This document shows positions 2,900-19,564 of a stretch of DNA of 21,831 bases, piece after piece. The stretch covers positions 1-21,831 of the IMG/VR virus record IMGVR_UViG_3300023180_000460; one strand, given 5' to 3'. The stretch comes from a virus. A program made the position numbers and the translations under genes. Within the stretch, counting starts at the first letter, position 1; each line of letters begins with the position of its first letter. The notes under the pieces were generated by a model. That model saw only the letters and a program-made list of their open reading frames with translations. It made no database searches and was not told the DNA's origin.

Positions 2900-3400
2900 A
2901 TGTCTTCTATTAATTTTTTTAAAGCAAAAAATAAACACGAATATAATCAAAAATTTTTGACAAAAGTTCCTTCTTGGGAGCAAATAATTTACAATATAGA
3001 TTTAAATGTAAAGAAAAAAAACAAAATAATAAATAGAGATTATTATGGAATAGAAATTTTTAATATATTTGATATAGAAGAAGTAGATAAAATTATTGGT
3101 TGGATTAAAAAAAATAATCCAAACCATTTATATTCAGCACATGCTTATGTAAGTCTGTCAGAAAAAAGTCATACACTAGGAAAACATTTTGATAGTTCTG
3201 ATGTATGGTTTTGGCAGTGCATAGGAAAAACTAAATGGCATGTATATGAAAACAACAAAAATTATTCTTATATAATGAGTCCTGGCGATTTTATATATGT
3301 TCCAAAGAATATTTTTCATGAGGTAATTCCATTAACACCAAGGGTTGGAATTTCTTTTGGAATAGATTATAATGATTCTATACTTAAATACAGTTATTGA
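2900..3400 (+). CDS. Cupin/JmjC-like Fe(II)-dependent oxygenase-type protein
   Basis: 166 residues. The second half has the layout of cupin-like (JmjC-related) dioxygenases: HFDSSDVWFWQCIGKTKW, in which H96 and D98 form an HxD pair and WQ..GKTKWHVYE follows; then LSPGD-like MSPGDFIYVPKNIFHEV with H140 as the third ligand; and a downstream Arg (R148) that could hold 2-oxoglutarate. In this family such enzymes hydroxylate protein or small-molecule side chains. It opens cargo cassette A, starting 28 bases after the adhesin gene without a clear Shine-Dalgarno, and its stop lies only 5 bases before the ATG of the carbamoyltransferase gene. It is far more AT-rich than the fibre genes. Cupin-like proteins often accompany tryptophan-halogenase-family genes in bacteria, and one is present in cassette B. 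Substrate unknown. Confidence 0.72.
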   Translation: MSSINFFKAKNKHEYNQKFLTKVPSWEQIIYNIDLNVKKKNKIINRDYYGIEIFNIFDIEEVDKIIGWIKKNNPNHLYSAHAYVSLSEKSHTLGKHFDSSDVWFWQCIGKTKWHVYENNKNYSYIMSPGDFIYVPKNIFHEVIPLTPRVGISFGIDYNDSILKYSY

Positions 3401-3405
3401 ATAAC

Positions 3406-5136
3406 ATGAATATTTTGGGAATTTATGGTAGTTTTAATTGGGAAGCAAATACCTCATATGATGAAAATGGTTCAATATCATGGCTTCATGATTCTGGTGC
3501 ATCTCTCATAATTAATGGAAATCATGTATGTAGTATTTCAGAAGAAAGGCTTAGTAGAATTAAGTATGATGGCAATTTTCCTAAACTGTCCATAGATTAT
3601 TGCTTATCTGAAGGAAATTTGCATCCGGAAAATATAGATTTGATATGTATTACATCAATGTGTCTTGATATTTTTTATGAGAAATTGTATAACAATGAAA
3701 TTCATAAAAAAATAAATGAAATATTTCCAAATGCAAAAATAAAAATAGTTTCACATCATCTAAGTCATGCTGCAGCAGCAATTTTTACTTGTGATTTTAA
3801 TGAAGGAACTTTTCTTATATTAGATGGAGCTGGTAGTAAAATTTATGATCCATATAAAAATAATGAAATAACAACAGAAACTAATAGTATTGGATACTTT
3901 AATAAGTATGAAAATGTTTTAAGAATTCATCCAGGATATCATGAAGTTAATGATTTTGGTACTTATTATAGGGGATTATCTCAGATTATATATGAAAGAA
4001 AAACTCATAGGAAACTTTGGGATTATGAGGAAAATATTCGTGAAAGTTTGAGTGGAAAAATAATGGGTCTTTCTGCTTATGGTGAATATCAAAAACATGA
4101 TTGGAAAGACTATTCTGTGTCTTTAGATTATGAATTGCCATTTATTAAATTTAAATCAGAAAGAGGTGAAAAAAATTTATTTAATGATACCTATAGTTTT
4201 AAAAATCCAGAAGATATGAGTTCGATACTACAGAAAAATTTTGAAAGTGCATTGTTAGATTATATAATTGCTCTTAAAAATCAAACATATCTCACAGATA
4301 ATGTATGTTTTTCTGGAGGTTGTTTTCTTAATGTTCTAGCAAACACTAGTATTAAAAAACTTAATTTATTTAAAAATATTCATATTCCTCCATGTACGAA
4401 TGATAGTGGATTGCACTTTGGTGCTGCTTGCTATGGTGCATTTTTAAATAAACAAAAAATAAAACTTCCTGAAAACATTGCACTTCTTGGAAAAAAATAT
4501 CAAGATGCAGAAATTTTACAAGAACTAAAAAATCATCAGGTAAAATATCAATATTTCAACTCTTTTGATGATTTGTGTGATGATGTTGCATCATATCTCC
4601 ACGATAATAAAATTATTGGATGGTTTCAAAATAGATCTGAATTCGGACCTAGAGCATTAGGATCTCGTTCTTTATTAATGAATCCATCTATTAAGGAAAA
4701 TAAAGATATAATGAATACTAGAGTGAAGCACAGAGAATATTGGAGACCTTTTGCTGGAATAATATTAGAAGAAGATTTTCATGATTATTTTAATGAAAAT
4801 TTTACTTCAGATTACATGCTTTACTCTTTTTCTGTGAAAGAATCTAAAATTTCAGAATTAGGTGCAATTACTCATGTTGATAATACTTGTAGAGTTCAGA
4901 CTGTGAACAAACAATTAAATCCAGAAGTTGCAATTTTATTGAAAAAATATAAAAAAATATCAGGAATTCCCGTATTACTTAACACATCATTCAATGACAA
5001 TGGTGATCCGATTGTGGAAACACCAAAAGATGCTATTATGTCTTTTTTAAAAATGGATTTGGATTACTTAATAATTGGTAATTATATCGTAGAAAAAAAT
5101 ATTAGTAAAAAAAATAAAATTACAGTAATATATTGA
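3406..5136 (+). CDS. Carbamoyltransferase, NodU/CmcH/TobZ family
   Basis: Family members transfer a carbamoyl group from carbamoyl phosphate, via carbamoyl-AMP, to a hydroxyl on a sugar or antibiotic. With the ATG at 3406 the protein has 576 residues, the normal family length. Motifs in order: N-terminal GIYGSFNW and HDSGASL (28-34), EERL.R.K (47-53), the metal-binding HHLSHAAAA (117-125), LDGAGS (139-144), SGGCFLNV (303-310), then the C-terminal YrdC-like domain with NRSEFGPRALGSRS (409-422), YWRPFAG (445-451), and NTSFNDNGDPIVETP (526-540). All hallmark residues appear intact, so it should be active. An in-frame TTG at 3397 is a less likely start. It sits between two oxygenase-like genes; the substrate may be a glycosylated or hydroxylated product of its neighbours. 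Family assignment is firm, substrate is unknown. Confidence 0.93.
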   Translation: MNILGIYGSFNWEANTSYDENGSISWLHDSGASLIINGNHVCSISEERLSRIKYDGNFPKLSIDYCLSEGNLHPENIDLICITSMCLDIFYEKLYNNEIHKKINEIFPNAKIKIVSHHLSHAAAAIFTCDFNEGTFLILDGAGSKIYDPYKNNEITTETNSIGYFNKYENVLRIHPGYHEVNDFGTYYRGLSQIIYERKTHRKLWDYEENIRESLSGKIMGLSAYGEYQKHDWKDYSVSLDYELPFIKFKSERGEKNLFNDTYSFKNPEDMSSILQKNFESALLDYIIALKNQTYLTDNVCFSGGCFLNVLANTSIKKLNLFKNIHIPPCTNDSGLHFGAACYGAFLNKQKIKLPENIALLGKKYQDAEILQELKNHQVKYQYFNSFDDLCDDVASYLHDNKIIGWFQNRSEFGPRALGSRSLLMNPSIKENKDIMNTRVKHREYWRPFAGIILEEDFHDYFNENFTSDYMLYSFSVKESKISELGAITHVDNTCRVQTVNKQLNPEVAILLKKYKKISGIPVLLNTSFNDNGDPIVETPKDAIMSFLKMDLDYLIIGNYIVEKNISKKNKITVIY

Positions 5137-5141
5137 TTAAT

Positions 5142-5678
5142 ATGAAAATAACAGCATTTGAAATACCAATTTTTAAATATAAAGTTTCTGAATGGCAAAT
5201 TAAAAAGAAAAAATTATTAGATTTATTTGATTCTTTTGACAATCAAATAGTTGGTAATGTTATTACAAGTCCAATATTTTATAAAACAGATATATTTTCT
5301 GAAGAAATGCATCTGTTCGAAAAAGAAGTTAATCTAAAGTTAAAAATAGATAATATTTGGTTTCAGAAATATGAAACAAAAATGGATCATGGAGTTCATA
5401 ATCATGGATCATCTACATTTTCTTCTGTTTGTTTTATAGAATATGAGAAAAATTTTCATAGTCCGACTATTTTTGTATCTCCCTTTACAAATAATATTAC
5501 AAATGAATTTATTACTTATGCACCAAATGTAGAAGAGGGTGATATAATATTTTTTCCATCAAATCTTTTACATTATGCACCTCCAAATTTTTCAGATAAA
5601 CATAGAACTATTATTTCATTTAACTTATTAATTGATAATATAAATGAAAATAAAATAAAGTACAATTATAGTTGTTGA
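5142..5678 (+). CDS. 2OG-Fe(II)-oxygenase-like protein (2OG-FeII_Oxy_5-like)
   Basis: 178 residues from the ATG at 5142; an in-frame TTG at 5133 overlaps the upstream stop and is less likely. The pattern IWFQKYETKMDHGVHNHGSS (about 72-91), then EEGDIIFFPSNLLHYAPP (131-148) and HRTIISFNLL (154-163), matches the jelly-roll core of the putative 2OG-Fe(II) oxygenase family 5 common in cyanophages. Candidate metal ligands are H86 and/or H88 and H144; R155 is the candidate 2-oxoglutarate anchor. No Asp or Glu stands two positions after the first His, so the classical HxD pair is not visible. The gene follows the carbamoyltransferase by 5 bases and lacks a clear Shine-Dalgarno. The family is inferred from motifs; substrate unknown. 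Confidence 0.7.
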   Translation: MKITAFEIPIFKYKVSEWQIKKKKLLDLFDSFDNQIVGNVITSPIFYKTDIFSEEMHLFEKEVNLKLKIDNIWFQKYETKMDHGVHNHGSSTFSSVCFIEYEKNFHSPTIFVSPFTNNITNEFITYAPNVEEGDIIFFPSNLLHYAPPNFSDKHRTIISFNLLIDNINENKIKYNYSC

Positions 5679-5723: not shown

Positions 5724-6329
5724 ATGAATTTACTCACCATATATTCAACTGCAATATGGCAAGCAGAATATTCTGAGTTTGAAAACGAAAAGGAAATGAT
5801 TCTTGATGTATGCAAAAGATATAGACAGGAGAATCCACACTCATTTCAAGTATCGGGTGTAGGTGGATATCAGTCACCAAAGCTTCTTCATTTAAATGAA
5901 GAATTAAGGTCGGTTTTTAATTATATTACTCTTTTGTCAAATATTGCAGCAGAAAATCTTAATTTTGTTGAAAGAGAACTTTTTATCACAAATTCTTGGG
6001 TAAATTATAATGATTCAAGACAAGCAATGAATTCTGAACATGTTCATGGAGATGTATTTTCTGGTGTGTTTTATTTGAAAGTACCGGAGGGAAGTGGAAA
6101 ACTCTGCATAAGTAATCCTGGAATTAACAGAATGTGGATGGGATGTGATCTTGTTAAAGAAAAAAATCAATTTTGTGCAGAAAGTATAAAAATAATACCC
6201 GAAGAGGGTAAAATTTTGCTTTGGCCATCATATTTACCACATTCAGTGGAAACAAATGATCATGATGAAGAAAGAATTTCCATTTCTTTTAATATTATTG
6301 CACTTCCAAAAAATAGTATTAATTCATAA
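5724..6329 (+). CDS. 2OG-Fe(II) oxygenase-like protein (2OG-FeII_Oxy_5 type)
   Basis: 201 residues and the clearest member of this family in the window. SWVNYNDSRQ is followed by EHVHGDVFSGVFYLKVPEG (105-123), then GKLCISNPG, EEGKILLWPSYLPHSVE (160-176) and EERISISFNI (182-191). The W.N....... H.H....SGVFYL.....G.L, G....WPS...H.V and R.SISFN blocks are those of the cyanophage 2OG-Fe(II) oxygenase family (PF13759-like). Candidate ligands are H106, H108 or D110, and H173; R184 would contact 2-oxoglutarate. A candidate extended -10 promoter lies just upstream; no Shine-Dalgarno is seen. It is followed after 8 bases by a glycosyltransferase. Substrate unknown; surface glycan or fibre protein modification are both possible. 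Confidence 0.82.
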   Translation: MNLLTIYSTAIWQAEYSEFENEKEMILDVCKRYRQENPHSFQVSGVGGYQSPKLLHLNEELRSVFNYITLLSNIAAENLNFVERELFITNSWVNYNDSRQAMNSEHVHGDVFSGVFYLKVPEGSGKLCISNPGINRMWMGCDLVKEKNQFCAESIKIIPEEGKILLWPSYLPHSVETNDHDEERISISFNIIALPKNSINS

Positions 6330-6337: not shown

Positions 6338-7066
6338 ATGAAAAAACTTTTAATTACATTTGATATTAATACTTACACGAAAGAAATTACAGATATTACA
6401 TATCCGTATATGAAATCTTATGCAAATAAGATTGATGCAGACTTTAAGATAATTACTGAAAGAAAATATCCAAATGAACCTGTAATCTGTGAAAAATTTC
6501 AAGTATATGATATAAGTAAAGAATATGATTGGACAATACTAATAGATTGTGATGCAATCATTCATCCAAACTGCCCTGATGTTACTGAAGTTTATAACAA
6601 AGATGCTGTAATTTTTAATGCATATGATTTATATCCATTAAGATTTAAACACAACAATTACACACGAAGAGATGGAAGAAATATTGGAGCACCTCCTTGG
6701 TTTAGCGTATTTAGTAATTGGACAAGACATCTTTGGAAACCTTATGACAATCCAACACAATACTTAAGTGAAATAAATTTAACAAATAAAGAAAAAAATT
6801 TCGGATATAAACCAGAGCATATTTTAACCGATTACCTTGTAAGTAGAAATATTGCAAAATACGGTCTTAAAGTAAAAACAATATTGCATGATATGTTTGC
6901 ATCATATCCTAAAGATGGTTATCCTTTGTTTTTTATTCATCAGTATTGTATAACACAACAAGAAAAAATTGAATATTTGAACTATTGGAATAATTTTATA
7001 AAAAATGAAATACATTCAATATATGATGATGGTTTAAAACTAAAAAATAATATGAATTATTCATAA
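6338..7066 (+). CDS. GT-A type glycosyltransferase-like protein with DxD motif
   Basis: 242 residues. The N-terminus KKLLITFDIN, YMKSYANKIDADFKIIT, a conserved-looking EKFQVYDI and YDWTILIDCDAIIHP (64-77) match the nucleotide-sugar-binding half of GT-A glycosyltransferases. D70-C-D72 is the metal-binding DxD. Later blocks NIGAPPWFSVFSNWTRHLWKP and PEHILTDYLVS resemble the acceptor side of GT8-like or phage glycosyltransferases of similar length. It would move a sugar from a nucleotide sugar to an acceptor in the cytoplasm; no membrane segment is seen. Its TAA overlaps by one base the ATG of the truncated sulfotransferase fragment (TAATG), indicating that an intact sulfotransferase once followed it in the operon. 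Donor and acceptor unknown. Confidence 0.72.
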   Translation: MKKLLITFDINTYTKEITDITYPYMKSYANKIDADFKIITERKYPNEPVICEKFQVYDISKEYDWTILIDCDAIIHPNCPDVTEVYNKDAVIFNAYDLYPLRFKHNNYTRRDGRNIGAPPWFSVFSNWTRHLWKPYDNPTQYLSEINLTNKEKNFGYKPEHILTDYLVSRNIAKYGLKVKTILHDMFASYPKDGYPLFFIHQYCITQQEKIEYLNYWNNFIKNEIHSIYDDGLKLKNNMNYS

Positions 7067-7165: not shown

Positions 7166-8104
7166 ATGAAAATTATTAATATTGACGGTGGAATTGGAAG
7201 AATTATTACTGCTCTTCCAGCACTCCTTAAGTACCATAAAAATCATCCAGATGAAGAATGGTATCTATCAATTATGGGATGGGATTATGTTCCTTTAGGT
7301 ATTCCAGAACTTCAAGAAAGAACCTTTAATCCGGATACAAAAGGATGCTGGGAAAATTATTTCTTGAAAGCAGATGAGGTAATTTATTCTGAGCCTTATC
7401 GTCTTCCAAATTTTTATAAAGGAAAAATCTCACTTGTTGAAGCATTTGATGAAATCATTAATGAAACGGAAGATCATACAGATTTAAATTATGAAACTTT
7501 GAATCTTTCTCATGCAGAGATTCGTAAAGGTCAAGAAATAATTTATAAAGCATATGAATCTCAAGGAAAAGAACAAACGATTGTTATCAATCCATATGGT
7601 TCTACTGCACAAACATGTCCTATAGGAGTCTATGATGATTCCTTAAGGTCTTTGCCAGAAAATATGTTCATTCAACTCTGCGAACTACTTTCGGAGGATT
7701 ATAATATCATCTATATGGGATATCGACATCTTCTTTCAGAGGATAATAAGTTTGTTTATGTTCCAGATCAAGATCTTCATATGCGTGAATGGATGGGAGT
7801 AATTTCTCAAATTGATTATTTTATTGGATGTGATAGTGTTGGCCAGCACATTGCAAGGGCAACAGGAACTCAAGGATGCGTGATTATGGGAGGAACTAAT
7901 CCGATTAATATGTCTTATCCGGATTATTTTAGAATCATTCAAAGAAAAGAAGCAGTGTACTCTCCAATGAGAATCTCTGCACTCCAATCTAATCTTGCAG
8001 AAAGATTAAATAAAGAATGTATTGAATATACTGAAGAAGAAATTTTAGATGTTTACGAAAAAATTAAAAAAGATATGGCTAAAATTTTAAAAATAGTTTG
8101 TTAA
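7166..8104 (+). CDS. Glycosyltransferase family 9-like (GT-B) protein
   Basis: 312 residues with a GGAG site 5 bases before the ATG. It starts MKIINIDGGIGRIITALPAL, the N-terminal GT9 pattern in which heptosyltransferases have a GD.....P.L. The C-terminal half has TIVINPYGS (138-146), a mid-strand IIYMGYR, and the diagnostic IGCDSVGQHIARATGTQGCVIMGGTNP (about 220-246), which parallels the heptosyltransferase D-S-G..H.A.A.G.P....FG.T.P block; D223, S224 and H228 are the key matches. GT9 enzymes transfer heptose or related sugars to lipopolysaccharide or other glycans. It is less AT-rich than cassette A genes upstream and lies between two gene fossils, so it probably arrived as a separate insertion. 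Substrate unknown. Confidence 0.75.
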   Translation: MKIINIDGGIGRIITALPALLKYHKNHPDEEWYLSIMGWDYVPLGIPELQERTFNPDTKGCWENYFLKADEVIYSEPYRLPNFYKGKISLVEAFDEIINETEDHTDLNYETLNLSHAEIRKGQEIIYKAYESQGKEQTIVINPYGSTAQTCPIGVYDDSLRSLPENMFIQLCELLSEDYNIIYMGYRHLLSEDNKFVYVPDQDLHMREWMGVISQIDYFIGCDSVGQHIARATGTQGCVIMGGTNPINMSYPDYFRIIQRKEAVYSPMRISALQSNLAERLNKECIEYTEEEILDVYEKIKKDMAKILKIVC

Positions 8105-8315: not shown

Positions 8316-9080
8316 ATGACAAAAGCACGGGACATATCTTTTTATGGTTTGGGCGTTGGAATTCAGTCTGCTGGCTCAGTAATTTCTGGAACTGGTGTCA
8401 CTACACTCAACTTTATTGGTGCAGCAAATACCTTCACCGTTGTTGATGATAGAGTTGATATTAGTATTGCTGGTGGCATTGGGATTCAGTCTGCTGGATC
8501 AGTAATTTCAGAATCCGGTGTTACACAATTAAATTTTATTGGCGCAGCAAATACCTTTGCTGTTGTTGATGATAGAGTTGATATTAGTATTGCTGGTGGC
8601 ATTGGGATTCAGTCTGCTGGATCAGTAATTTCAGAATCCGGTATTACACAATTAAATTTTATTGGCGCAGGTAATACCTTTGCCGTAAATGGAAATACTG
8701 TAGATGTCAGTATTGCTGGTGGTGGCGGCGGTGCTGGAGGCATTGGTATTCAATCTGGAGGTTCTAGAGTTGCCTATGGTATCACTGATGTAAATATTGC
8801 AATTGGATCTACAACTTCTAGAAATATTACTGCAATTGGTGATACATCTACTATTTCTGTTGATCTTGGTGAATATTATATTTTTAGGAAACCTTCAGTC
8901 GGATTTGCTACAATGAGGGTGTTGATTGCTGGATCTAATGGAGGTATTGCCAAATCTGATTATCTTGGTGGGAGTGAACATGTCGGAATGACTACCGTTA
9001 ATACCGACCAATTCCCATGGGTGGCTGGGATTGGAATTACCATCAGTTCACTTGGTCACTTGATTTTTACAGTACCCTAA
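8316..9080 (+). CDS. Repeat-containing tail fibre-like protein
   Basis: 254 residues, starting 17 bases after an exact late promoter. Residues about 13-135 are three copies of a 41-residue unit, GIQSAGSVIS..GVT.LNFIGAANTF.VVDDRVDISIAGG, with copies 2 and 3 nearly identical in DNA. A Gly-rich linker (GGGGGAGG) leads to a different C-terminal domain with GSRVAYGITDVNIAIGSTTS, then DLGEYYIFRKPSVGFATMR and a final VAGIGITISSLGHLIFTVP. The repeats match the G.GIQS.G..I..G.T.LNF.GAGNTF.V.G..VDISI.GG pattern seen in cyanophage fibres. Such units form extended beta-rich trimeric shafts in related phages. It is followed by two carbohydrate-binding-like paralogues. Role as a fibre or whisker component is inferred; the repeat number is likely to vary between relatives. 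Confidence 0.82.
   Translation: MTKARDISFYGLGVGIQSAGSVISGTGVTTLNFIGAANTFTVVDDRVDISIAGGIGIQSAGSVISESGVTQLNFIGAANTFAVVDDRVDISIAGGIGIQSAGSVISESGITQLNFIGAGNTFAVNGNTVDVSIAGGGGGAGGIGIQSGGSRVAYGITDVNIAIGSTTSRNITAIGDTSTISVDLGEYYIFRKPSVGFATMRVLIAGSNGGIAKSDYLGGSEHVGMTTVNTDQFPWVAGIGITISSLGHLIFTVP
8352..8720 (+). repeat. Three in-frame 123-bp direct repeats
   Basis: Three tandem units of 123 bp (41 codons) begin near 8352, 8475 and 8598. Units 2 and 3 share long identical stretches, for example the 20-mer beginning at 8475 and again at 8598, while unit 1 and the end of unit 3 have diverged. The exact multiple of three keeps the fibre frame open, so slippage or unequal recombination would lengthen or shorten the fibre shaft without breaking it. 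Confidence 0.9.
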
Positions 9081-9117: not shown

Positions 9118-9945
9118 ATGGCAATTACCATAGACGTAGGCAAAATCAAGCTTCAATGGAGAAGCACCTACTCTGGATCCACTGCATATGAGGTTGATGA
9201 TGTAGTTCTTTATGATGATTCCATTACCAATAGTGCATATATTGCTGTCGCTAATAGTACAGGACAAAATCCATCCAATTCTGGAACAGTAAATACCACT
9301 TATTGGAACCTTCTAGCACAAGGAGCCTCAGCAACGTCAGGAGGGACTAGTGATGGGCAAATTCAATTCAAAAACAGCACCGGATTTGCAGGAACAAGTT
9401 TGTTATTCTATGATAGTACTAATAACTATTTGGGTATCAGTAGTGAAATTCCGACAAGAACTTTAGATGTTCTTGGGACATTTCAGAGCACTAATCTGAA
9501 TATTACTGGCATTGCAACTTTCACTGATGCTAATGTTGATGATAAACTCTCATTTGATACAATTCTTGAGACCACCACTATCACAGCGGGAGCAGCAAAC
9601 GCTACTTCTAACCTCGATGTAAAGAATGGAAGTATATTTCTTTTCACCACAAACTCTGGATCTACTTGGACACACAACCTCCGTGGTGATGCATCTACAA
9701 CACTAGATAGTATTATGGATGTTGGCCAATCACTTGTAGTGACGGTAATCTCTAAACAAAACAACACAAGTTACTATACTGCAAATATCAATATTGATGG
9801 TGCTGCCCAGACAGAATATTGGTTTGCTGGTTCTGCACCTGTCGCTGGTATGTCATCTTCTGGTTATGATGCGTATAGTTGGACCATTATTAAAACTGGT
9901 TCATCCGCATTTATTGTTTTGGCAACTCAATCTCAATTTGGTTAA
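9118..9945 (+). CDS. Tail fibre-like protein with CBM5/12-like N-terminus, paralogue 1
   Basis: 275 residues after a good AAGGAG site. Residues 5-68 read VGKIKLQWRSTYSGSTAYEV, then DDVVLYD, AYIAVANSTGQNP and TTYWNLLAQGA. The W...Y.....Y...D.V.Y.....Y.......G..P.....YW..L..G layout is that of small carbohydrate-binding modules of the CBM5/12 type, which often sit in phage fibre proteins. A linker DGQIQFKNSTGFAGTSLLFYDS and a fibre-type NYLGISSEIPTRTLDVLG repeat follow. The second half (about 165-275, from ATSNLDVKNGSIF) is a separate domain with WTHNLRGDAST. It is paired with a near-copy immediately downstream. A glycan-binding fibre or tail-tip role is inferred. Confidence 0.78.
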   Translation: MAITIDVGKIKLQWRSTYSGSTAYEVDDVVLYDDSITNSAYIAVANSTGQNPSNSGTVNTTYWNLLAQGASATSGGTSDGQIQFKNSTGFAGTSLLFYDSTNNYLGISSEIPTRTLDVLGTFQSTNLNITGIATFTDANVDDKLSFDTILETTTITAGAANATSNLDVKNGSIFLFTTNSGSTWTHNLRGDASTTLDSIMDVGQSLVVTVISKQNNTSYYTANINIDGAAQTEYWFAGSAPVAGMSSSGYDAYSWTIIKTGSSAFIVLATQSQFG

Positions 9946-9951
9946 TAACTC

Positions 9952-11813: not shown

Positions 11814-12296
11814 ATGGAAAATCAAACATCGTATGCAAATTTAAATGATGAAGGTAAAGTCGTAAGAATTGTTTGCGAAAGTCTTGAGTATTTAAATGAA
11901 AATTATTATGGAACTTGGGTTGATGCATTACTGGATCATGATACAAAGCAAAGAGCTGAAATTGGTATGAAGTATAATGCCGATCTTCAAATTTTTTATA
12001 ATGAAGAATTACCTGATAATACTGGTTATTGGGTACTAGATCGTAATACTGGTAGATATAATAATATTAAACCATATCCAGATGATAGACCTGATGTTAG
12101 GCAGTGGAGTTGGAATCATTTAACTGGTGAATGGGAACCATACTCTAGTGCTGTTTATAAAACTGATCCAAGAATAACATCTGATTATCCAAATGATGGA
12201 CTTTATTATAGATATCATTTCGGAAGTGATACTTGGAGAAGAGTTGAATACATTGAAAATGAAGATGGAAATTATATTGAAACTGATGTTGACTAA
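11814..12296 (+). CDS. Conserved-looking cyanophage tail-region protein (160 aa)
   Basis: 160 residues. It begins with a short beta section, YANLNDEGKVVRIVCESLEY, then a KQRAEIGMKYNADLQIFYNEE stretch (about 44-64), WVLDRNTGRYNNIKPYPDDRP and a Trp-rich WSWNHLTGEWEPY. The RA.IGM.Y....D.F, then W.L......W....P.PDD pattern recurs in small proteins next to cyanophage fibre genes, where the upstream form is usually A.ID..N.V..V. They are thought to be virion or fibre-assembly proteins, but no function is established. It is the last gene before cassette B: a GATAAATA late-type octamer and then the oxygenase gene follow. No membrane or catalytic motif is visible. Confidence 0.68.
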   Translation: MENQTSYANLNDEGKVVRIVCESLEYLNENYYGTWVDALLDHDTKQRAEIGMKYNADLQIFYNEELPDNTGYWVLDRNTGRYNNIKPYPDDRPDVRQWSWNHLTGEWEPYSSAVYKTDPRITSDYPNDGLYYRYHFGSDTWRRVEYIENEDGNYIETDVD

Positions 12297-12338: not shown

Positions 12339-12983
12339 ATGGGACAAATTGTTAATGTATTTTCACCATGGTTTTATCAAACAAATATAAATTTAAATAA
12401 AAAATATAGAGAAAAAGTCACTTCTAAGCTAAGAAGATTATATTATAAAAATAAATTTCTAAATGCTAAAGATTGGAATTGTAATGTCCATTCCTCATTT
12501 GGAGAAAAAAGACTTCCAGATCATTTTAACTGGAGTCCATTATTAGATGCTTATAGTATTAAAATTACTGAATTCATTAATGAAAATAACTTAAATTGTA
12601 CATATTTTCATATTGAGGATATTTGGTACAATGTTTATGGTAAGATGCAGAACCAAGAAATGCACACACATCATGGTTCTGGGATAAATTTTAGTGCTGT
12701 TCATTTTTTACAATTTGACAATAAAACTGACCCTCCAATAAGATTTTGCAACACAAATGATTCTTTTGTTAAGAAAAGATCTGATTCAGAAATTAAAGAT
12801 TTGGTGAATACTGGTATCGGATATTATCAGAATTCATACGATCCAGAAATAGTGGAGGGATCTTTTTTAATATTTCCAAATTGTTTGAGTCATGAAGTTC
12901 CAATGAAATTTACTAGTAAATTACGAATGACAATATCAATGAATATTAATATTCAATTGAGATCAACAGGATGTGATTGTTAA
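12339..12983 (+). CDS. 2OG-Fe(II)-oxygenase-like protein (2OG-FeII_Oxy_5-like)
   Basis: 214 residues. The N-terminus NVFSPWFYQTNI has the short beta start seen in this family. The core is IEDIWYNVYGKMQNQEMHTH (about 92-111), HGSGINFSAVHFLQFD, EGSFLIFPNCLSHEVP (173-188) and LRMTISMNI (195-203). These match W.N.Y......H.H.....S.V.FL, G....FP....H.V and R.TIS.N. Candidate ligands are H109, H111 or H112 and H185; R196 would bind 2-oxoglutarate. As in the gene at 5142, with which it shares most, an HxD acid is not apparent. It leads cassette B and is followed by a sulfotransferase after 3 bases. Substrate unknown. Confidence 0.7.
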   Translation: MGQIVNVFSPWFYQTNINLNKKYREKVTSKLRRLYYKNKFLNAKDWNCNVHSSFGEKRLPDHFNWSPLLDAYSIKITEFINENNLNCTYFHIEDIWYNVYGKMQNQEMHTHHGSGINFSAVHFLQFDNKTDPPIRFCNTNDSFVKKRSDSEIKDLVNTGIGYYQNSYDPEIVEGSFLIFPNCLSHEVPMKFTSKLRMTISMNINIQLRSTGCDC

Positions 12984-12986: not shown

Positions 12987-13811
12987 ATGAAAAATAAAAA
13001 ATATTATTTTTTAGGTGGATTGATGAGAAGTGGAAATACACTACTATCGTCAATACTTAATCAAAATCCAGACATTAAAGTTTCCCCTAACTCACTTGTT
13101 CCCGATTTATATCAATCATTAGATAGTTTAAGATTTAAACCAAATTTTGACTTGCATGACTCAAATTTAGATTTAATAGATAATTTTTTAAAAAAGTCTA
13201 TAGATATTTTTTACGAAAACATAGATTGTAAATATCTCATAGACAGAAATGGAGCATGGGGGACACCAGAGAATTTAGAGAAAATAAAAAAATATATAAC
13301 GGAAGATGTTAAAATAATATTTCCAGTAAGAAATATTACAGATATATTATCCTCTTTTATCAGAGCACTAAAAAGTCACCCAAATAATAACATAACAGAA
13401 GAAGCATACAATCATACATATCCATACCTCAGTGATGATGATAGAATATGTGATTACTTGATGTCAACAGGTTCACCCATGTTGGACTTGCAATTATATT
13501 CATTAAAAAATTTATTAAAAGAAGAAAATAGAAAATATTTACATATCATAGAGTATGAAGATTTAGTTTCAAATCCAAAAAAACAAATAAAAAAAATTTA
13601 TGATTTTTTAGAAATACCTTATTATGACCATGATTTTAAAAATATATGTCAATATTCTTTTGAGAAGAAATCATATAATGATATTGAATCTTTAGGTGTC
13701 CCTTTACATAGTATCAACACAGGAATTGTAAAAAAGAGATCTCCCAGGTCTAAAACAGTTCTATCAAAATATGCATATCAAAAATATTCTAATTTAGAAT
13801 TTTGGAGATAG
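12987..13811 (+). CDS. PAPS-dependent sulfotransferase
   Basis: 274 residues. The N-terminal KKYYFLGGLMRSGNTLLSSI (5-23) is the 5'-phosphosulfate loop, with R14, S15, G16 and N17 in the positions seen in bacterial sulfotransferases. IIFPVRNITDILSS (110-123) is the 3'-phosphate motif with R115 and S122/S123. The YLHIIEYEDLVSNPKKQIKKIYDFLEIPY block (about 184-212) is also typical. These enzymes move sulfate from PAPS to hydroxyls of glycans, lipids or proteins. The phage would depend on host PAPS. It shares its N-terminal region with the fossil at 7066, implying that this family is a repeated guest in both cassettes. It ends overlapping the ribosome binding site of the next, unrelated sulfotransferase. 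Confidence 0.87.
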   Translation: MKNKKYYFLGGLMRSGNTLLSSILNQNPDIKVSPNSLVPDLYQSLDSLRFKPNFDLHDSNLDLIDNFLKKSIDIFYENIDCKYLIDRNGAWGTPENLEKIKKYITEDVKIIFPVRNITDILSSFIRALKSHPNNNITEEAYNHTYPYLSDDDRICDYLMSTGSPMLDLQLYSLKNLLKEENRKYLHIIEYEDLVSNPKKQIKKIYDFLEIPYYDHDFKNICQYSFEKKSYNDIESLGVPLHSINTGIVKKRSPRSKTVLSKYAYQKYSNLEFWR

Positions 13812-13813
13812 TT

Positions 13814-14377
13814 ATGTTTTTGAATCGAAATAGACATGAAAAATTATTTTTGTTTGTCCACATACCAAAAACTGGTGGAACATCTATAAGATCAATCATA
13901 AAAGACAACTGGAATAGATCTTATCCATATTTTCATGATCCTCTTTTTAATCTTCAATTATTGAATGATATTGGAGATAATATTTTTAAATTTTGTGTAG
14001 TGAGAAATCCATACACAAGAACTTTTAGTTATTATAAACATTTTTTAAGAAATAATCCTCAGTTCAATAATTGGAATTTTGAAACTTTTCTATATCATCT
14101 TAAGAAAAAAGTATATTTTAAAAACACACCTATGATTGGTTACCCTCAATCTTTTTATGTGTATGATTTAAATGGAGATATATCACTAAATGTTTTTAAT
14201 TTTGAAAATCTTGTTAAATTAGAAAAAGTTCTAGACAGAAAACTTCCTATTCTGCATAATGGGGGTTATAATGTAGATGATTATTATCAATCATATTCTA
14301 AAAAGAATATTGAAACTGTTAAGGAAATGTTTTCAATTGATTTTGATAATTTCAATTATTCAACAAAATTTATATGA
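13814..14377 (+). CDS. Carbohydrate-type sulfotransferase (Sulfotransfer_2-like)
   Basis: 187 residues from the ATG at 13814, preceded by a TTGGAG site inside the end of the upstream gene; an in-frame TTG at 13802 is less likely. LFLFVHIPKTGGTSIRSI (11-28) is the PAPS-binding loop of the carbohydrate sulfotransferase type, and FCVVRNPYTRTFSYYKHFL (60-78) is the 3'-phosphate motif. Family members sulfate sugars. This is a different branch from the gene before it, which has the RSG.T loop. The C-terminal part (VFNFENLVKLEKVLDRK, then VDDYYQSYSKKNIETV) carries the usual FE.L and YY....I..V..... features. It overlaps the downstream beta-hydroxylase gene by 4 bases (ATGA), so expression is coupled. 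Confidence 0.87.
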   Translation: MFLNRNRHEKLFLFVHIPKTGGTSIRSIIKDNWNRSYPYFHDPLFNLQLLNDIGDNIFKFCVVRNPYTRTFSYYKHFLRNNPQFNNWNFETFLYHLKKKVYFKNTPMIGYPQSFYVYDLNGDISLNVFNFENLVKLEKVLDRKLPILHNGGYNVDDYYQSYSKKNIETVKEMFSIDFDNFNYSTKFI

Positions 14378-14940
14378 ATAAACCATATTCTTATAAGTTA
14401 CTAAAAAATATTGATGTTTCAAATCTTGTTGATTTTCTTGAGCAGTATCGACACAAAATTGATATCAACACTGATTTCAATACTTCTTATGGTAGAGAAA
14501 AGTGTTTTATCAATTGTAATTCATATCCCATAATTGATAATTTTATGATTAACGATATCCAATTGCATGAGATCTTTTTTAATACATTTGATGAAATAAT
14601 AAATCTTTTTTATTCAAATTATGGTCCAGGAAATTTCTGTAAGATACAATTTTCAAATTTAAAATCTTTTGGGAAAATAAAAACACACTATGATGGTGGA
14701 TTAGTATATTTGTGGTCGCATAGAATTCACATACCAATAATAACTAACGAAAAAGTAATCTTTAATGTTGATGGAATTAGGAAAAATATAAAACTAGGTG
14801 AAATTGTAGAGGTAAATAACAATAAGATGCACTCAGTAAAGAATGGTGGTAATCAAGACAGAATTCATTTGATACTTGATTATATGCCGAATGAGTACTA
14901 TAAAATTTTTTCAGAATTAAATTTGAGTCATGAACATTAG
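14374..14940 (+). CDS. Aspartyl/asparaginyl beta-hydroxylase-like protein
   Basis: 188 residues, starting at an ATGA overlap with the sulfotransferase stop. The second half has the family layout: GKIKTHYDGGLVYLWSHRIH (100-119), then IPIITNEKVIF, LGEIVEVNNNKMHSVKNGG (141-159) and DRIHLILDYMP (162-172). H105 and D107 form an HxD pair, H153 is the distal ligand and R163 follows as expected for 2-oxoglutarate binding. Asp/Asn beta-hydroxylases act on protein side chains, and related bacterial proteins act on small molecules or lipids. Animal AspH lacks the acid ligand; here D107 may supply it. The first 80 residues have no recognised motif. It overlaps the next oxygenase gene by 11 bases. The family call is good; the target is unknown. 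Confidence 0.82.
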   Translation: MNKPYSYKLLKNIDVSNLVDFLEQYRHKIDINTDFNTSYGREKCFINCNSYPIIDNFMINDIQLHEIFFNTFDEIINLFYSNYGPGNFCKIQFSNLKSFGKIKTHYDGGLVYLWSHRIHIPIITNEKVIFNVDGIRKNIKLGEIVEVNNNKMHSVKNGGNQDRIHLILDYMPNEYYKIFSELNLSHEH

Positions 14941-15472
14941 AAATTTAATTAAAAGACTAGTTTTAAATTTTTACGACATAAAGATATATGATGATTTTTT
15001 TGAATCCTATTGTCTAAACTTTATAGAAAAAAATATTTCAAATCTTCCCTTCTATAGATCAGAATATGATCTAGCAGGACGTTTAAAAAAGAAATCTGGA
15101 TTGGTCCATTATATTGACTATAAATCAGATGTGTATAATATAATTGAAAACAGATTAGTAGATAAGAATATATTGACAGATAAAAATAAAATTGATAGAA
15201 TGTATTACAATTTATTTTTGCCAAATGAAAATCCACAGTATCATGTAGATTCAAAAAATAACAATGATATTACGGTATTAGTTTATTTGGATAATATTGA
15301 AATTGATATGAATGAAAATGGATGCACCGAATTTGATATTGACAGTTTAGTTCTTGGTATTCCCCACATAAAAAATAGAGTTGTAGTTTTTAATTCAACT
15401 ATAAAACATAGAGCAACATCATTTTTAGATAAAGATAGATACTCTATAGCTGTAAAAATTGTAAAAGATTGA
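14930..15472 (+). CDS. Prolyl-4-hydroxylase-like 2OG-Fe(II) oxygenase
   Basis: 180 residues. A helical N-terminus is followed by MYYNLFLPNENPQYHVDS (91-108) with H105 and D107, ITVLVYLDNIE (114-124), an NGCTEF acidic loop, IKNRVVVFNSTIKHRATS (147-164) with H160, and DRYSIAVKIV with R170. This order (Y......H.D, L..YLN, G..G.T.F, V.F.S...H......, R.S..K) is that of prolyl-4-hydroxylase superfamily proteins. It overlaps the upstream hydroxylase gene by 11 bases and is 4 bases from the halogenase gene. Two different hydroxylases in series with a halogenase suggest successive oxidation of one scaffold or peptide, though no substrate can be read from sequence. Confidence 0.78.
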   Translation: MNIRNLIKRLVLNFYDIKIYDDFFESYCLNFIEKNISNLPFYRSEYDLAGRLKKKSGLVHYIDYKSDVYNIIENRLVDKNILTDKNKIDRMYYNLFLPNENPQYHVDSKNNNDITVLVYLDNIEIDMNENGCTEFDIDSLVLGIPHIKNRVVVFNSTIKHRATSFLDKDRYSIAVKIVKD

Positions 15473-15476: not shown

Positions 15477-17039
15477 ATGAAAAAAAGATTATTGGTTGTT
15501 GGCGGTGGAACTGCAGGATGGTTGACAGCTATGTTTGTCAGAAAGATGTTTCCAGAGGCAGAAGTCACTGTTATAGAAGATAAAAATTCAAAGGTTATAG
15601 GGGTTGGGGAAAGCACAGTTCCTGCAATCCTTGACGTGTTTAATTTTATTGATGTTCCTATCGAAGAATTAATTAAAAATTGTGGTGCTACGATAAAGAA
15701 TTCAATCAAGTTTACGAATTGGAATGGCGATGGTGACTCTTATTATCATGGATTTAATGTTCCTGGAAAGTCAATATCATTGTATAATTTTAGTAAAGCT
15801 TCTCCATACTCATTTAATGACATAGATATTGATTGTGATAAATCCTTCTTGTTTTTGAATCAATTATATAAAGGAAAAAATTTGAATGAGGTTGATTTTC
15901 CATCTAAACTTAGTATGGATTACAAAATACCTTTAGTTTTTGATCAAAAAAAGAAAAACGGAAGTAACAATAAAATAGAACATTTTAATCAATGTTGTTA
16001 TTATGCTCTTCACTTTAATGGACAAATAGTCTCTAAGTACTTAAGAACTTTTTCACATGAAAGGAACATTAATATAGTGGATGGTCTTGTAATTGATTGT
16101 GATCTTGATCAAAATAAAAATATTAAGAGTGTATTGTTGGAAGATAACAGAAAAATAGATTGTGATTTTATCTTTGACTGTACAGGGTTTTCTAGATTTT
16201 TCATTGATAAAATATACAAATCAGAATTCAAATCTTATAAAAAATATTTACCGATAAAGAGAGCAATACCATTTTATCTGGACAATAAAAAAAGAATTCC
16301 ACCATACACTGAAGCGATTTCTATGAAAAATGGTTGGATGTGGAAAATACCAGTAGAAGAAAGATTTGGATGTGGATATGCTTTTGATTCAGATTATTGT
16401 ACTGATGACGAGTGTTATGAAGAAATTTGTAAATTTTTAAATTTTGAACCAGAATTTAAATCTTCGATATCATTTGAACCTGGATATTATAAAAAAGTTT
16501 GGAATAATAATGTATTATCTTTAGGGTTATCCTCTGGATTTATAGAACCTTTAGAGGCTACTTCTATATGGGTTACAGTTATGTCATTGACAATGTTGAC
16601 AAAATATATTGCTGGAATTGTAGATTTGAATTCAAAAATAATAAATGAGTATAATATTGATTTTGAAAAGAAAACAGACAGTATCTTAAACATAGTTTAT
16701 TTTCATTATCTAAACAAAAGACAAGATACTCCTTTTTGGAAAGAGTTTAGGGAAAAGAATCAACATCCAGAATCTATAGTAGAAATACTAGAGACATTCA
16801 AATACAGAACTCCTTTCAAAAGTGATAAAATGTTTTATGATAGTTTTGCGATAGAAAGTTGGTTAATTGTTGCTGCGGGAAATAAGTATTTTTCTAATGA
16901 TGTAATAGAAAATGAATTCTTGACGTACAATGTAAGAGAAAATATTATTAACAATGTAAATCATCATAAAGAAAATCTTAGAAAGGTTTCAGGGATGTGC
17001 ATAGAACATGATTCATTCATAAAGTATATGAAAGGATGA
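15477..17039 (+). CDS. Tryptophan-halogenase-family flavoprotein
   Basis: 520 residues, normal for flavin-dependent halogenases. These enzymes use FADH2, O2 and halide to place Cl or Br on an aromatic ring. Visible motifs: FAD-binding VVGGGTAGWLTA (7-18), GVGESTVP (42-49), the GATIKNSIKFTNW stretch (70-82), in which K74 aligns with the essential lysine of PrnA-type enzymes, WMWKIP (the W.W.IP halogenase signature, mid-protein), and GFIEPLEATS, in which the first Glu aligns with the catalytic glutamate. All key residues are present, so activity is plausible. Not every family member is a halogenase of free tryptophan, and no flavin reductase is in the window, so the host would need to supply FADH2. 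ATGA overlap joins it to the DUF6445-like gene. Family firm, substrate unknown. Confidence 0.9.
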   Translation: MKKRLLVVGGGTAGWLTAMFVRKMFPEAEVTVIEDKNSKVIGVGESTVPAILDVFNFIDVPIEELIKNCGATIKNSIKFTNWNGDGDSYYHGFNVPGKSISLYNFSKASPYSFNDIDIDCDKSFLFLNQLYKGKNLNEVDFPSKLSMDYKIPLVFDQKKKNGSNNKIEHFNQCCYYALHFNGQIVSKYLRTFSHERNINIVDGLVIDCDLDQNKNIKSVLLEDNRKIDCDFIFDCTGFSRFFIDKIYKSEFKSYKKYLPIKRAIPFYLDNKKRIPPYTEAISMKNGWMWKIPVEERFGCGYAFDSDYCTDDECYEEICKFLNFEPEFKSSISFEPGYYKKVWNNNVLSLGLSSGFIEPLEATSIWVTVMSLTMLTKYIAGIVDLNSKIINEYNIDFEKKTDSILNIVYFHYLNKRQDTPFWKEFREKNQHPESIVEILETFKYRTPFKSDKMFYDSFAIESWLIVAAGNKYFSNDVIENEFLTYNVRENIINNVNHHKENLRKVSGMCIEHDSFIKYMKG

Positions 17040-17554
17040 AAATTATGAATAGTATTATTATAAAAGATAATTTCTTCTCAAATCCAAATTATTATAGGTC
17101 TCTAGCTTTAGATAAAAAAGATCAGTTCAAATCACCACAATATTCTAATGAAAATTGGAAAGGTTATCGTATTCCTTATTATGAAAAAAGTTTTGATAGA
17201 ATTTTAAAATTTGTCAAAAAACAGTTTTCAATAAAAGAAAAGGATATTTTATTTGAAACATATTTTCATTATTCTCTCGAAAAAACGAAAAAATCATGTT
17301 TTCCAACATTTAATAATTATAAAATGCATATAGATCCATGTTCTTACTCTGGAATTGTATACTTAACACCAGATGCGAATATAGAATCTGGAACTACATT
17401 TATTGATTCTTATAATAATTCAAAAATTAAAATTGAAAATTATTATAATAGATTAGTTTGTTATCCTGCAAACATTTTACATGGTCCAACTGATTTATTT
17501 GGTGACGATATATATGATGGAAGATTGACATTAACATTTTTTATTAATGTTTAA
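17036..17554 (+). CDS. DUF6445-like / 2OG-Fe(II)-type protein
   Basis: 172 residues; the ATG overlaps the halogenase stop by 4 bases, and a second ATG at 17045 is also possible. NYKMHIDPCSYSGIVYLTPD (94-113) gives H98 and D100, then SGTTFID, LVCYPANILHGPTDLFG (140-156) with H149 and GRLTLTFFINV with R163. The VYLTPD....SGT.F, Y.A...H......FG, RL....F order resembles DUF6445 proteins, which are often neighbours of tryptophan-halogenase-family genes in bacteria. The HxD...H...R spacing is that of a 2OG-Fe(II) jelly roll. It is likely a partner that acts on the same substrate as the halogenase. The co-occurrence is family knowledge; the chemistry is inferred. Confidence 0.72.
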   Translation: MKIMNSIIIKDNFFSNPNYYRSLALDKKDQFKSPQYSNENWKGYRIPYYEKSFDRILKFVKKQFSIKEKDILFETYFHYSLEKTKKSCFPTFNNYKMHIDPCSYSGIVYLTPDANIESGTTFIDSYNNSKIKIENYYNRLVCYPANILHGPTDLFGDDIYDGRLTLTFFINV

Positions 17555-17587: not shown

Positions 17588-17595
17588 AATAAATA
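17588..17595 (+). promoter_or_regulatory. Late-promoter-like octamer (AATAAATA)
   Basis: AATAAATA stands in a 67-base gap, 26 bases before the ATG at 17622. It fits the relaxed NATAAATA late consensus of T4-like cyanophages but not the strict TATAAATA. Given the very AT-rich surroundings it could be chance; the position in the only sizeable gap of cassette B is its main support. Confidence 0.35.
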
Positions 17596-17621
17596 ATATT
17601 TTTAAACTCGACTCAAAGTGT

Positions 17622-18182
17622 ATGGTGGAAGTAAAGGTTATAAAGAAATATGTTACATCTGATGTTTTGAATGAATTAAACTCTTGGACACTCAATAACT
17701 ACAAAAAACCTTTTTTTAATGAATCCGTCTATATGAATTCTGGTGGAACAAGATATACTACTAGACAATGTGTAAATAGAAATCGTGACTGGATGTTTAA
17801 TTACCCAAATGCTGTTTATAATTTACAGAAAAGAATATGTACTGATTTTTCTATAGAAAATGAACCAGTGATTCCTGTAGGAAAAAATGGTATTGTGACT
17901 GGAATTGGATTAGAGAATGATTATATCGAAGAACATACTGATCCAATTTGGGTTGAAAACACTGAGACAATTCATTTTAATATAATTTCCCAAAAATCAA
18001 ACATCGGCGGAATTACTATTATTGAAAATAAAATGTATGATATTGATGAAGGGGATTTGTTGGTGATTAATGTATCCAAACATAAACATAAAGTATCAAA
18101 AACTTCTGGAAATGTCTCTAGAATTTTATATGTATTTGGTTTCTGTTTAACAAATAAAAAAATTAAGGATATTTTTATTTGA
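17622..18182 (+). CDS. 2OG-Fe(II)-oxygenase-like protein
   Basis: 186 residues, last gene of cassette B. GIGLENDYIEEHTDPIWVEN (94-113) gives H105 and D107; ETIHFNIISQKSNIGGITII (115-134) gives the beta strand and G..G.... turn; DEGDLLVINVSKHKHKVSKT (142-161) gives H154 or H156; SRILYVFGF (166-174) gives R167. The spacing matches the HxD...H...R core of 2OG-Fe(II) dioxygenases, although the exact subfamily is not recognised. It is separated from the rest of the operon by 67 bases with a late-like octamer, so it may be expressed separately. Its stop codon is part of the -35 box of the strong promoter that follows. Substrate unknown. Confidence 0.68.
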   Translation: MVEVKVIKKYVTSDVLNELNSWTLNNYKKPFFNESVYMNSGGTRYTTRQCVNRNRDWMFNYPNAVYNLQKRICTDFSIENEPVIPVGKNGIVTGIGLENDYIEEHTDPIWVENTETIHFNIISQKSNIGGITIIENKMYDIDEGDLLVINVSKHKHKVSKTSGNVSRILYVFGFCLTNKKIKDIFI

Positions 18183-18207: not shown

Positions 18208-18230
18208 ATAACTGAATACATTATTCAAAT

Positions 18231-18851
18231 ATGGCGTTTCAATCAGTTTGGTATTACACCAATCTGCCAGAAGATGTTGTGGATATTATCGAAAGAGATC
18301 TAACAGAGAATTTCGATTCACAAATGGCAGATTCTCGATTACACGGGGATGAACTGAACAAAGATAAGAGAAACTCGCAGAACACTTGGATTCCCACTAC
18401 ACATTGGGTTGCAGGTTTCTTGTGGCATTATGTTCAACGTGCAAACCGTGAGAACTTCTTGTATGACCTGAGGAATATTGATGGCGAAAGTCTTCAATAT
18501 ACCAGATATGGGGAAGGTCAGTTCTATGGATGGCACAATGATGCTGGACTTGCTACACAGTATAAACCTGTGAGTGTTGGTAACCATGATCAGGGATTGC
18601 ACCAAGACTTTGTGAATGAGAACCTTGAACTTGTACGTAAGTTGTCATTCTCTATTCAACTCTCTGATCCTGATGACTATGAGGGTGGTAATCTTCAATT
18701 GCTGGATGAGAACGGAAATAGTTATATTGTTCCACGACAGAGAGGATGTATCTGTCTGTTTGACTCCCGCACACAACATAGAGTTTTGAAAGTAACAAAA
18801 GGAACCCGCAAATCCGTTGTGGGTTGGGTAGTTGGACCAAGGTGGAAATAA
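18231..18851 (+). CDS. PKHD-type 2OG-Fe(II) hydroxylase-like protein
   Basis: 206 residues behind a perfect sigma70-type promoter. LQYTRYGEGQFYGWHNDAG (88-106) supplies H102 and D104; KLSFSIQLSDPDDYEGGNLQ (137-156) is the hallmark strand and G..G.L turn; GCICLFDSRTQHRVLKVTKG (172-191) supplies H183; RKSVVGWVVGP contains R193 as the 2-oxoglutarate contact. This order is that of PKHD-type (PiuC-like) prolyl-hydroxylase superfamily enzymes, a type widespread in cyanophages. Codon use is more balanced than in cassette B. It overlaps the next gene by one base (TAATG), making a two-gene unit. A target protein or small molecule is not known. Confidence 0.85.
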   Translation: MAFQSVWYYTNLPEDVVDIIERDLTENFDSQMADSRLHGDELNKDKRNSQNTWIPTTHWVAGFLWHYVQRANRENFLYDLRNIDGESLQYTRYGEGQFYGWHNDAGLATQYKPVSVGNHDQGLHQDFVNENLELVRKLSFSIQLSDPDDYEGGNLQLLDENGNSYIVPRQRGCICLFDSRTQHRVLKVTKGTRKSVVGWVVGPRWK

Positions 18852-19564
18852 TGGCAGTGTCAATGACAGTTGAACAACTTGCATTTCAAGAACAAATCAA
18901 TACTGGTACTGCCTGGACTCGTAACGATTCTTTTGAGAAGAATGGTTATCTGGTAATCAAAGACCTCTGGGACCCAGAAGAACTGTATCACCCTGTTCCC
19001 GAACAGAAGGGTCAGTATAACTACTGGGATAAGAATCCAGAACACTTCAATCACGTTCCAGTGGAGCAGCAGGTAGAAGGTTCTACTTCCCGTTACTGGC
19101 ACCCCCAGTATCGTGCGATTCATTCTGGTATTCGTATGAAACTGGAAGAAGCACTGGGTCGTAAACTGTATAATACCTATTATTATGATAGGTTCTATTA
19201 TCCTGGACAAGAACTCACTCGTCACGCAGACCGTGACGCTTGTGAGATTTCTGTGACGGTTCATATCAACACCAATCTGGAAGGTAAAGATAAGGATTGG
19301 CCCATCTGGATTAAAACTCCTGACACTTATACTGATAAGACTAAATCAACTGTCCTTGTTCCTGGTGAGAATCGTTCAGTAGTTCTTCAACCTGGTGATG
19401 GAATGGTATACAAAGGTTGCGAACGTCCACACTGGCGTGAAGCAATGCCAGGAAAGAAAAAATCTTGGTTTAACAAAAAAGAGTACTATTATCATCAAAT
19501 TTTCTTTCATTATGTTCTTGCTGATGGACAAAGAGCACATTGCGCTTGGGATAGAGCACGATGA
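18851..19564 (+). CDS. 2OG-Fe(II)-oxygenase-like cyanophage protein
   Basis: 237 residues from the ATG at 18851 in a TAATG overlap; an in-frame TTG at 18824 lies deep in the upstream gene and is unlikely. An N-terminal NDSFEKNGYLVIKDLWDPEE is a typical dioxygenase entry (F...GY.VI.......E). YYYDRFYYPGQELTRHADRD (110-129) gives H125 and D127; EISVTVHINT is the following strand; LQPGDGMVYKGCERPHWREA (179-198) gives H194. The usual Arg that binds 2-oxoglutarate is not obvious; H215 in YYYHQIFFHYV stands near its position. It pairs with the upstream PKHD-type enzyme and precedes the glutaredoxin gene. Oxygenase fold is likely; catalytic competence and substrate are uncertain. Confidence 0.72.
   Translation: MAVSMTVEQLAFQEQINTGTAWTRNDSFEKNGYLVIKDLWDPEELYHPVPEQKGQYNYWDKNPEHFNHVPVEQQVEGSTSRYWHPQYRAIHSGIRMKLEEALGRKLYNTYYYDRFYYPGQELTRHADRDACEISVTVHINTNLEGKDKDWPIWIKTPDTYTDKTKSTVLVPGENRSVVLQPGDGMVYKGCERPHWREAMPGKKKSWFNKKEYYYHQIFFHYVLADGQRAHCAWDRAR

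Follow-up and report, generated by a model that had tools for sequence, protein, structure and literature searches.

The 21,831 bases of IMG/VR record IMGVR_UViG_3300023180_000460, analysed here in their entirety (the window), carry an island of ten oxygenase genes, a flavin-dependent halogenase and other tailoring enzymes that is organised as enzyme modules behind tail-fibre genes. This organising principle was missed by the original prediction, which had singled out the ten oxygenases. On the basis of the enzyme families and their intact catalytic motifs, the modular gene order, a statistical linkage to fibre tips and the joint exchange of tips and enzymes, we propose that the linked enzymes chemically modify the receptor-binding tips of the phage's own fibres, a reading to which a probability of about 50% is given here.

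Enzyme modules behind fibre genes

The window appears, by its sequence, to belong to a marine T4-like cyanophage, probably of the family Kyanoviridae. Genes of PHROG 461 and PHROG 2954 are present, and the gene pair P-Q (18.2–19.6 kb) shares 79% DNA identity with Synechococcus phage S-SM2, where it likewise sits after tail-fibre genes; the fragment yielded no core replication or capsid gene. A longer contig of the same virus (>99.9% identical) reaches further upstream than the window, and in both of them blocks of enzyme genes lie directly behind fibre genes. Module 1 (2900–8104) has its enzymes behind a fibre-assembly gene that is followed by a Cys-rich protein, whereas module 2 (12339–19564) is led by the glycine-rich tip at 10795, with the small chaperone-like gene at 11814 between this tip and the enzymes; the order glycine-rich tip, PHROG 7759-type gene, tailoring enzyme is thus found at 10795, 11814 and 12339. 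A third enzyme block of the same virus, upstream of the window, comprises a diverged halogenase-like protein of 415 amino acids (aa) and then a second DUF6445 gene (L092:3896-5654). In this halogenase-like protein WxWxIP is reduced to WQFGLP and EPLE to EPLQ, and the pair repeats the halogenase–DUF6445 pairing of 15477–17554.

The association between fibres and enzymes extends to other phages. Across eight complete phage genomes, 46 oxygenase or halogenase genes lie downstream of gp34, a conserved fibre gene, at a distance of at most 20 kb, versus 11.7 expected; not one circular shift out of 20,000 attained this number. Members of the small-gene family that includes window gene 11814 are preceded by a glycine-rich open reading frame (ORF) in 28 of 30 dereplicated clusters (33/577 controls), and in 20 of the 30 a tailoring enzyme comes directly after them (78/565 controls); this signal stems partly from related cyanophage loci fetched via one of the following enzymes, and the followers belong to several different enzyme families. 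Additionally, the same oxygenase families recur in other combinations behind other fibre tips.

A particular tip is also tied to a particular halogenase. The glycine-rich tip of the syn9 gp38 type was found in 20 phage records, exactly the 20 that carry the closest relatives of VirX1, and the S-RIM44 isolates without this tip are also without that halogenase. The pairing spans two genome sites and persists to protein identities as low as about 40–45%, with no exception in the phage collection searched. Ten lineages show the order tip or tips, small gene, halogenase(s) and three to ten oxygenases (syn9/Syn10, S-CREM1, P-RSM6, S-WAM1, P-TIM40, S-SZBM1, S-RIM44, Sf-FP1, Sf-FR1 and the uncultured G001), with the cassette placed behind gp34-type fibres in some of them and before the neck gene gp13 in others. 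VirX1 (PDB 6QGM), a characterised viral iodinating halogenase, is gp42 of syn9 and is therefore part of a tip–enzyme cassette; in a review, the active site of VirX1 is characterised as large and accessible, and no gene cluster is assigned to the enzyme (PMC8407142). In 22 copies of the syn9 gp38-type tip, Y149, H179 and H202 are invariant beside glycines, and these residues would be chemically plausible sites of halogenation or hydroxylation. Tip and enzymes have been exchanged together between two S-RIM44 isolates, ES_42_0910 and W2_10_0709, whose sequences agree at about 95% immediately downstream of the cassette site: where ES_42_0910 has a giant fibre along with three glycine-rich tips, two halogenases and five or more oxygenases, the giant fibre of W2_10_0709 is diverged, its tip is unrelated and a single oxygenase is present.

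The window itself lies outside the VirX1-type cassette with its syn9 gp38-type tip, as its glycine-rich tip is of another type and its contig gave no match to the syn9 gp38 tip model at E≤1e-20. Both place a halogenase (or halogenases) and oxygenases, about ten in syn9/Syn10, behind glycine-rich fibre genes that are followed by a small chaperone-like gene; the window differs by the addition of a carbamoyltransferase, sulfotransferases and glycosyltransferase-like genes and by the division of its enzymes between blocks (Table 1).

Table 1. Fibre, chaperone-like and enzyme genes of the window in order of position; family matches are followed by their values
Feature	Position	Strand	Basis
Three small ORFs in tandem (414, 652, 887) ahead of module 1; short, repetitive, fibre-like	414..1132	+	Repeated segments in translations; sequence resemblance
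Tail fibre assembly protein	1564..2127	+	PHROG 4912 'tail fiber assembly' 1.5e-18
Putative module 1 fibre tip, Cys-rich protein of 246 aa with 26 Cys	2131..2871	+	Position, composition
Oxygenase A, JmjC_2/cupin type	2900..3400	+	PF08007 1.7e-11, over cut-off; HFD motif
O-carbamoyltransferase, NodU/GdmN/TobZ type	3397..5136	+	PF16861 9.5e-65, PF02543 3e-30; PDB matches GdmN, TobZ
Oxygenase C, 2OG-FeII_Oxy_5 (HxH variant)	5142..5678	+	PF13759 5.7e-11; PHROG 81 6e-36
Oxygenase D, 2OG-FeII_Oxy_5 (HxH variant)	5724..6329	+	PF13759 3.1e-22; PDB 2rg4 5e-11
Glycosyltransferase-like protein (weak assignment)	6338..7066	+	By inspection only; no Pfam match
GT9/heptosyltransferase-like protein (weak assignment)	7166..8104	+	PF01075 0.076, below cut-off
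Repetitive fibre protein, module 2	8316..9080	+	Tandem internal repeats
Two tandem fibre-like paralogues (9118-9945, 9952-10782)	9118..10782	+	First copy: PHROG 5073 'tail fiber protein' 1.9e-7
Glycine-rich fibre tip	10795..11793	+	PF21722 Gly_rich_2 7.6e-12; PHROG 863 tail fibre assembly 5.7e-8
Small gene separating tip from enzymes, chaperone-like (MAHFA family, PHROG 7759)	11814..12296	+	Family member; PHROG 7759 2.3e-4
Oxygenase H, 2OG-FeII_Oxy_5 (HxH variant)	12339..12983	+	PF13759 2.3e-10
Sulfotransferase	12987..13811	+	PF13469 1.6e-14, PF00685 2.4e-13
Sulfotransferase (family 2)	13802..14377	+	PF03567 1.9e-6, over cut-off
Oxygenase K, aspartyl/asparaginyl beta-hydroxylase type (Asp_Arg_Hydrox)	14374..14940	+	PF05118 1.3e-11; HYD motif
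Oxygenase L, prolyl 4-hydroxylase (P4H)-like	14930..15472	+	PHROG 274 6e-22; PF13640 5e-5, below cut-off
Flavin-dependent halogenase (RebH/PrnA/VirX1 superfamily)	15477..17039	+	PF04820 4.5e-105
Oxygenase N, DUF6445; start overlaps halogenase stop	17036..17554	+	PF20043 6.1e-8; HID motif
Oxygenase O, P4H/WelO5-like fold	17622..18182	+	HxD..H..R invariant in five sequences; fold matches, low-confidence model
Oxygenase P, PKHD/2OG-FeII_Oxy_3, conserved cyanophage gene	18231..18851	+	PF13640 8.2e-16; PHROG 61 4e-40; syntenic in S-SM2
Oxygenase Q, conserved cyanophage gene, P4H fold	18851..19564	+	PHROG 2954 2.5e-63; AlphaFold2 pLDDT 91, P4H matches

A proposed model of fibre-tip tailoring

In the proposed model, the island would consist of stacked modules, each made of a fibre shaft, a receptor-binding tip (often glycine-rich), a small chaperone-like gene and modifying enzymes. 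The chaperone would hold the tip while it folds, as in cyanophage Pam3, whose glycine-rich fibre domains are receptor-binding and chaperone-assisted (PMC9608196). The linked enzymes may then alter exposed side chains of the tip post-translationally, before or during fibre assembly: the 2-oxoglutarate (2OG) oxygenases would hydroxylate them, the flavin halogenase would introduce halogens at aromatic or His residues, and further groups would be added or capped by the sulfotransferases, the carbamoyltransferase and the glycosyltransferase-like proteins. The outcome would be a host-recognising adhesive surface that is diversified or stabilised. We infer the tip as substrate, and with it the residues that are modified and the benefit to the phage. 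The broader proposition, that marine phages halogenate, hydroxylate, sulfate and carbamoylate their own tips with dedicated cassettes co-inherited with the tip, is put forward tentatively, at a little under even odds.

Parts of this arrangement have counterparts in described systems. Pam3 gp24-gp25 and the S16 gp38 adhesin resemble the window in their glycine-rich receptor-binding domain, accompanied in Pam3 by a fibre chaperone, and differ from it in that no modifying enzymes are described in the available text (PMC9608196). The PBCV-1 prolyl hydroxylase and the collagen-modifying enzymes of mimivirus are virus-encoded and tied to the virus's own collagen-like proteins (PMC9546862); unlike the window, they belong to eukaryotic giant viruses, act on collagen-like substrates and are found with no halogenase.

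Several points weigh against tip modification, the case for which is genomic throughout. Fibre regions are hypervariable, and cargo could build up in them for recombinational reasons. The usual targets of carbamoyltransferases and sulfotransferases are sugars or small molecules. The window halogenase is only ~27% identical to the VirX1-type (syn9) halogenases. Halogenases are also found away from fibres in S-B64 (beside recombination genes), in HTVC008M (beside terminase genes) and in the uncultured loci L019, L025 and L027. A direct test for an enzyme immediately after the glycine-rich ORF was weak in the locus set (p=0.015) and negative in whole genomes, because the small chaperone-like gene stands in between; with that gene as the starting point, the test gave the clear signal described above. 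Proximity of halogenases to glycine-rich ORFs is a mixed result: in whole genomes the association within 3 kb was strong (8 of 14 versus 13 of 935), whereas no enrichment was seen in the locus set (10/49 versus 187/804 local control genes), which consists mostly of fibre regions.

The ten oxygenases

All ten ORFs that the original prediction had assigned to the oxygenase/cupin group were confirmed, by family models and predicted folds, as members of the double-stranded beta-helix oxygenase/cupin superfamily and are predicted Fe(II)/2OG enzymes. Seven exceed the Pfam cut-off, one was assigned through PHROG 274 and two through predicted fold. By hidden Markov model (HMM) or fold they span about eight families, which agrees with the at least six subtypes first suggested. 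The HxD pair that had been read in most of them stands for seven of the ten (HxD...H) and fails for the three 2OG-FeII_Oxy_5 (PF13759) members (5142, 5724 and 12339), which carry HxH instead, a variant also common among homologues of that family. Motif-only evidence was rejected as non-specific, since the loose pattern H.[DEH]..H..[RK] is also satisfied by 54% of shuffled sequences; the superfamily claim is thus carried by the HMM and fold results.

For ORF 14930, other members of PHROG 274 show HxD...H...R. Structure models cover two of the ten proteins (17622 and 18851). ORF 17622 gave in Pfam only a sub-threshold WelO5 match (0.09), and H105-x-D107...H156...R167 is invariant among relatives of 21–24% identity; its model is of low confidence (predicted local distance difference test, pLDDT, of 53) and matches prolyl hydroxylases, including PDB 5c5t, so that the fold match is taken as supporting evidence only. 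WelO5-type halogenases lack the motif carboxylate, and this assignment was rejected for ORF 17622, whose HTD motif retains it. ORF 18851, with no Pfam match, has a model of pLDDT 91 that matches prolyl 4-hydroxylases, and its H125, D127 and H194 are invariant. Several of the oxygenase families have protein-hydroxylase relatives (JmjC_2, Asp/Asn hydroxylase and prolyl-hydroxylase folds). Some cyanophage genes bear the labels 'DNA endonuclease V/denV' (PHROG 274), 'ferrochelatase' (PHROG 2954) or 'minor coat protein' (PHROG 1644) and appear to be misannotated 2OG-oxygenase-like proteins with HxD...H...R; such cases are found in the window (14930-15472, 17036-17554 and 18851-19564) and elsewhere (L006:24699-25181 and L191:15267-15815).

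Ten oxygenases in one phage is not an exceptional density. With HMMs built from the ten window proteins, 7–22 homologues were found in each of nine isolate genomes (22 in S-SCSM1, 21 in HTVC008M, 15 in P-TIM40 and 14 in syn9, where ten homologues lie inside about 7 kb), and 14 of 16 genomes were described as having 'numerous' oxygenases (Sullivan et al., 2010; PMC3037559), which overturns the earlier expectation of one or a few per cyanophage. In uncultured marine viruses, a recurrent cassette of three to four flavin halogenases and 11–12 oxygenases, with fibre genes on its flanks, is conserved across loci L058-L090 (e.g., L063:8166-20372). The island of Synechococcus phage S-SCSM1 resembles the window by at least seven oxygenases interleaved with tail-fibre genes and holds the only isolate homologue of ORF 17622; unlike the window, it is without a full-length halogenase. 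Enzyme clusters of this kind are already known, among them a cyanophage cluster of halogenase, 2OG- and Fe(II)-dependent dioxygenase and carbamoyltransferases (Iyer et al., 2021; PMC7824862, available text), and the window island is a variant of this known cyanophage enzyme cluster. A linkage of such clusters to fibre tips was not found in the literature searched.

Companion genes

The window halogenase is full-length and carries GxGxxG, WxWxIP, the catalytic Lys and EPLE; in a 12-sequence alignment K74, W287-x-W289-x-I-P and EPLE are invariant with its relatives. The Pfam name 'Trp_halogenase' is no evidence that it takes free tryptophan. Among its bacterial relatives (L299-L378), at least two tandem halogenases occur in 58 of 80 loci and large receptor-like ORFs lie nearby in 42 of the 80; in L318, the one annotated bacterial locus, the halogenases stand directly behind a TonB-dependent receptor. 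These settings suggest surface-protein partners without proving them. Locus L299, a contig binned as the Verrucomicrobia metagenome-assembled genome TMED56, encodes a glycine-rich tip, a chaperone-like gene, five oxygenases and a halogenase, and looks like a phage fragment.

The Cys-rich protein ahead of module 1 is without a PHROG or Pfam match and, besides copies from the same virus, has one weak relative (L132) among the fetched loci; it is possibly a disulfide-rich fibre tip.

Alternative explanations

The diversity of the oxygenases is consistent with the tailoring role first suggested for them. A single multi-step pathway, one of the two forms then envisaged, is not supported because the genes are split into separate blocks led by fibre genes and the same families are recombined behind other tips; the other form, a pool of alternative modifiers, agrees best with the data, and its likely targets are the fibre tips of the phage itself.

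Iyer et al. (2021) proposed a different product for related cyanophage clusters that hold these enzyme types, which they read as the chemistry of a halogenated amino-acid/sugar secondary metabolite or of host capsular polysaccharide decoration, with no mention of a fibre-tip linkage in the available text (PMC7824862). The carbamoyltransferase, sulfotransferases and glycosyltransferase-like genes of the window would suit such chemistry. However, no nonribosomal peptide synthetase, polyketide synthase or precursor peptide was found among the proteins searched (Pfam, NCBIfam), small ORFs not having been examined systematically; moreover, the enzyme sets differ between phages and track the fibre tip, and the neighbour of the enzymes is a fibre chaperone-like gene. 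A metabolite or capsule product is considered unlikely, at about one chance in five.

Modification of the host envelope during infection, in which lipopolysaccharide or surface proteins would be altered, for example to exclude superinfecting phages, draws on the same sulfotransferases, glycosyltransferase-like genes and carbamoyltransferase, which are typical glycan tools, and on the tandem bacterial halogenases with their one annotated case beside a TonB-dependent surface receptor. It leaves unexplained both the one-to-one link with a particular fibre tip and the order tip, chaperone-like gene, enzymes, and appears improbable. Equally improbable is the accumulation of unrelated accessory enzymes by frequent recombination in a hypervariable region, with no functional tie to fibres: the fibre region is strongly different even among S-RIM44 isolates, and some halogenase or oxygenase genes are located elsewhere, but cargo of this kind would hardly keep the tip–halogenase pairing at both genome sites over so wide a range of protein identity.

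A 2-oxoglutarate drain or nitrogen-status signal affecting NtcA-controlled expression, an idea already present in Sullivan et al. (2010) and taken up again in the original prediction as an influence on the host, has in its favour the many oxygenases and reported NtcA sites of cyanophages (PMC3037559), and is very improbable given that it leaves the halogenase, the sulfotransferases and the fibre linkage unexplained and that oxygenase turnover is coupled to substrate, so that a drain would not need ten distinct substrate-binding families. In some phages an oxygenase together with sugar and carbamoyl transferases acts on DNA bases, and hypermodification of this TET/JBP type by the hydroxylases, glycosyltransferases and carbamoyltransferase of the window is just as remote, as none of the ten oxygenases matches a TET/JBP family in Pfam, the genes are located with fibres and not with replication genes, and flavin halogenases and sulfotransferases have no known role on DNA.

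Significance

Few unexplained accessory genes of cyanophages are commoner than those for 2OG oxygenases and 'tryptophan halogenases', which are usually treated as auxiliary metabolism. If the phage's own fibre tips are indeed their targets, a large share of these 'auxiliary metabolic genes' would be virion-maturation enzymes, and VirX1, an iodinating enzyme studied for biocatalysis, would gain a natural substrate. Additionally, tip chemistry would diversify host range at a second level, on top of protein sequence, and host recognition would rest on chemistry that is not visible from sequence alone. The linkage to tips recasts the old oxygenase and halogenase puzzle as a question answerable by mass spectrometry.

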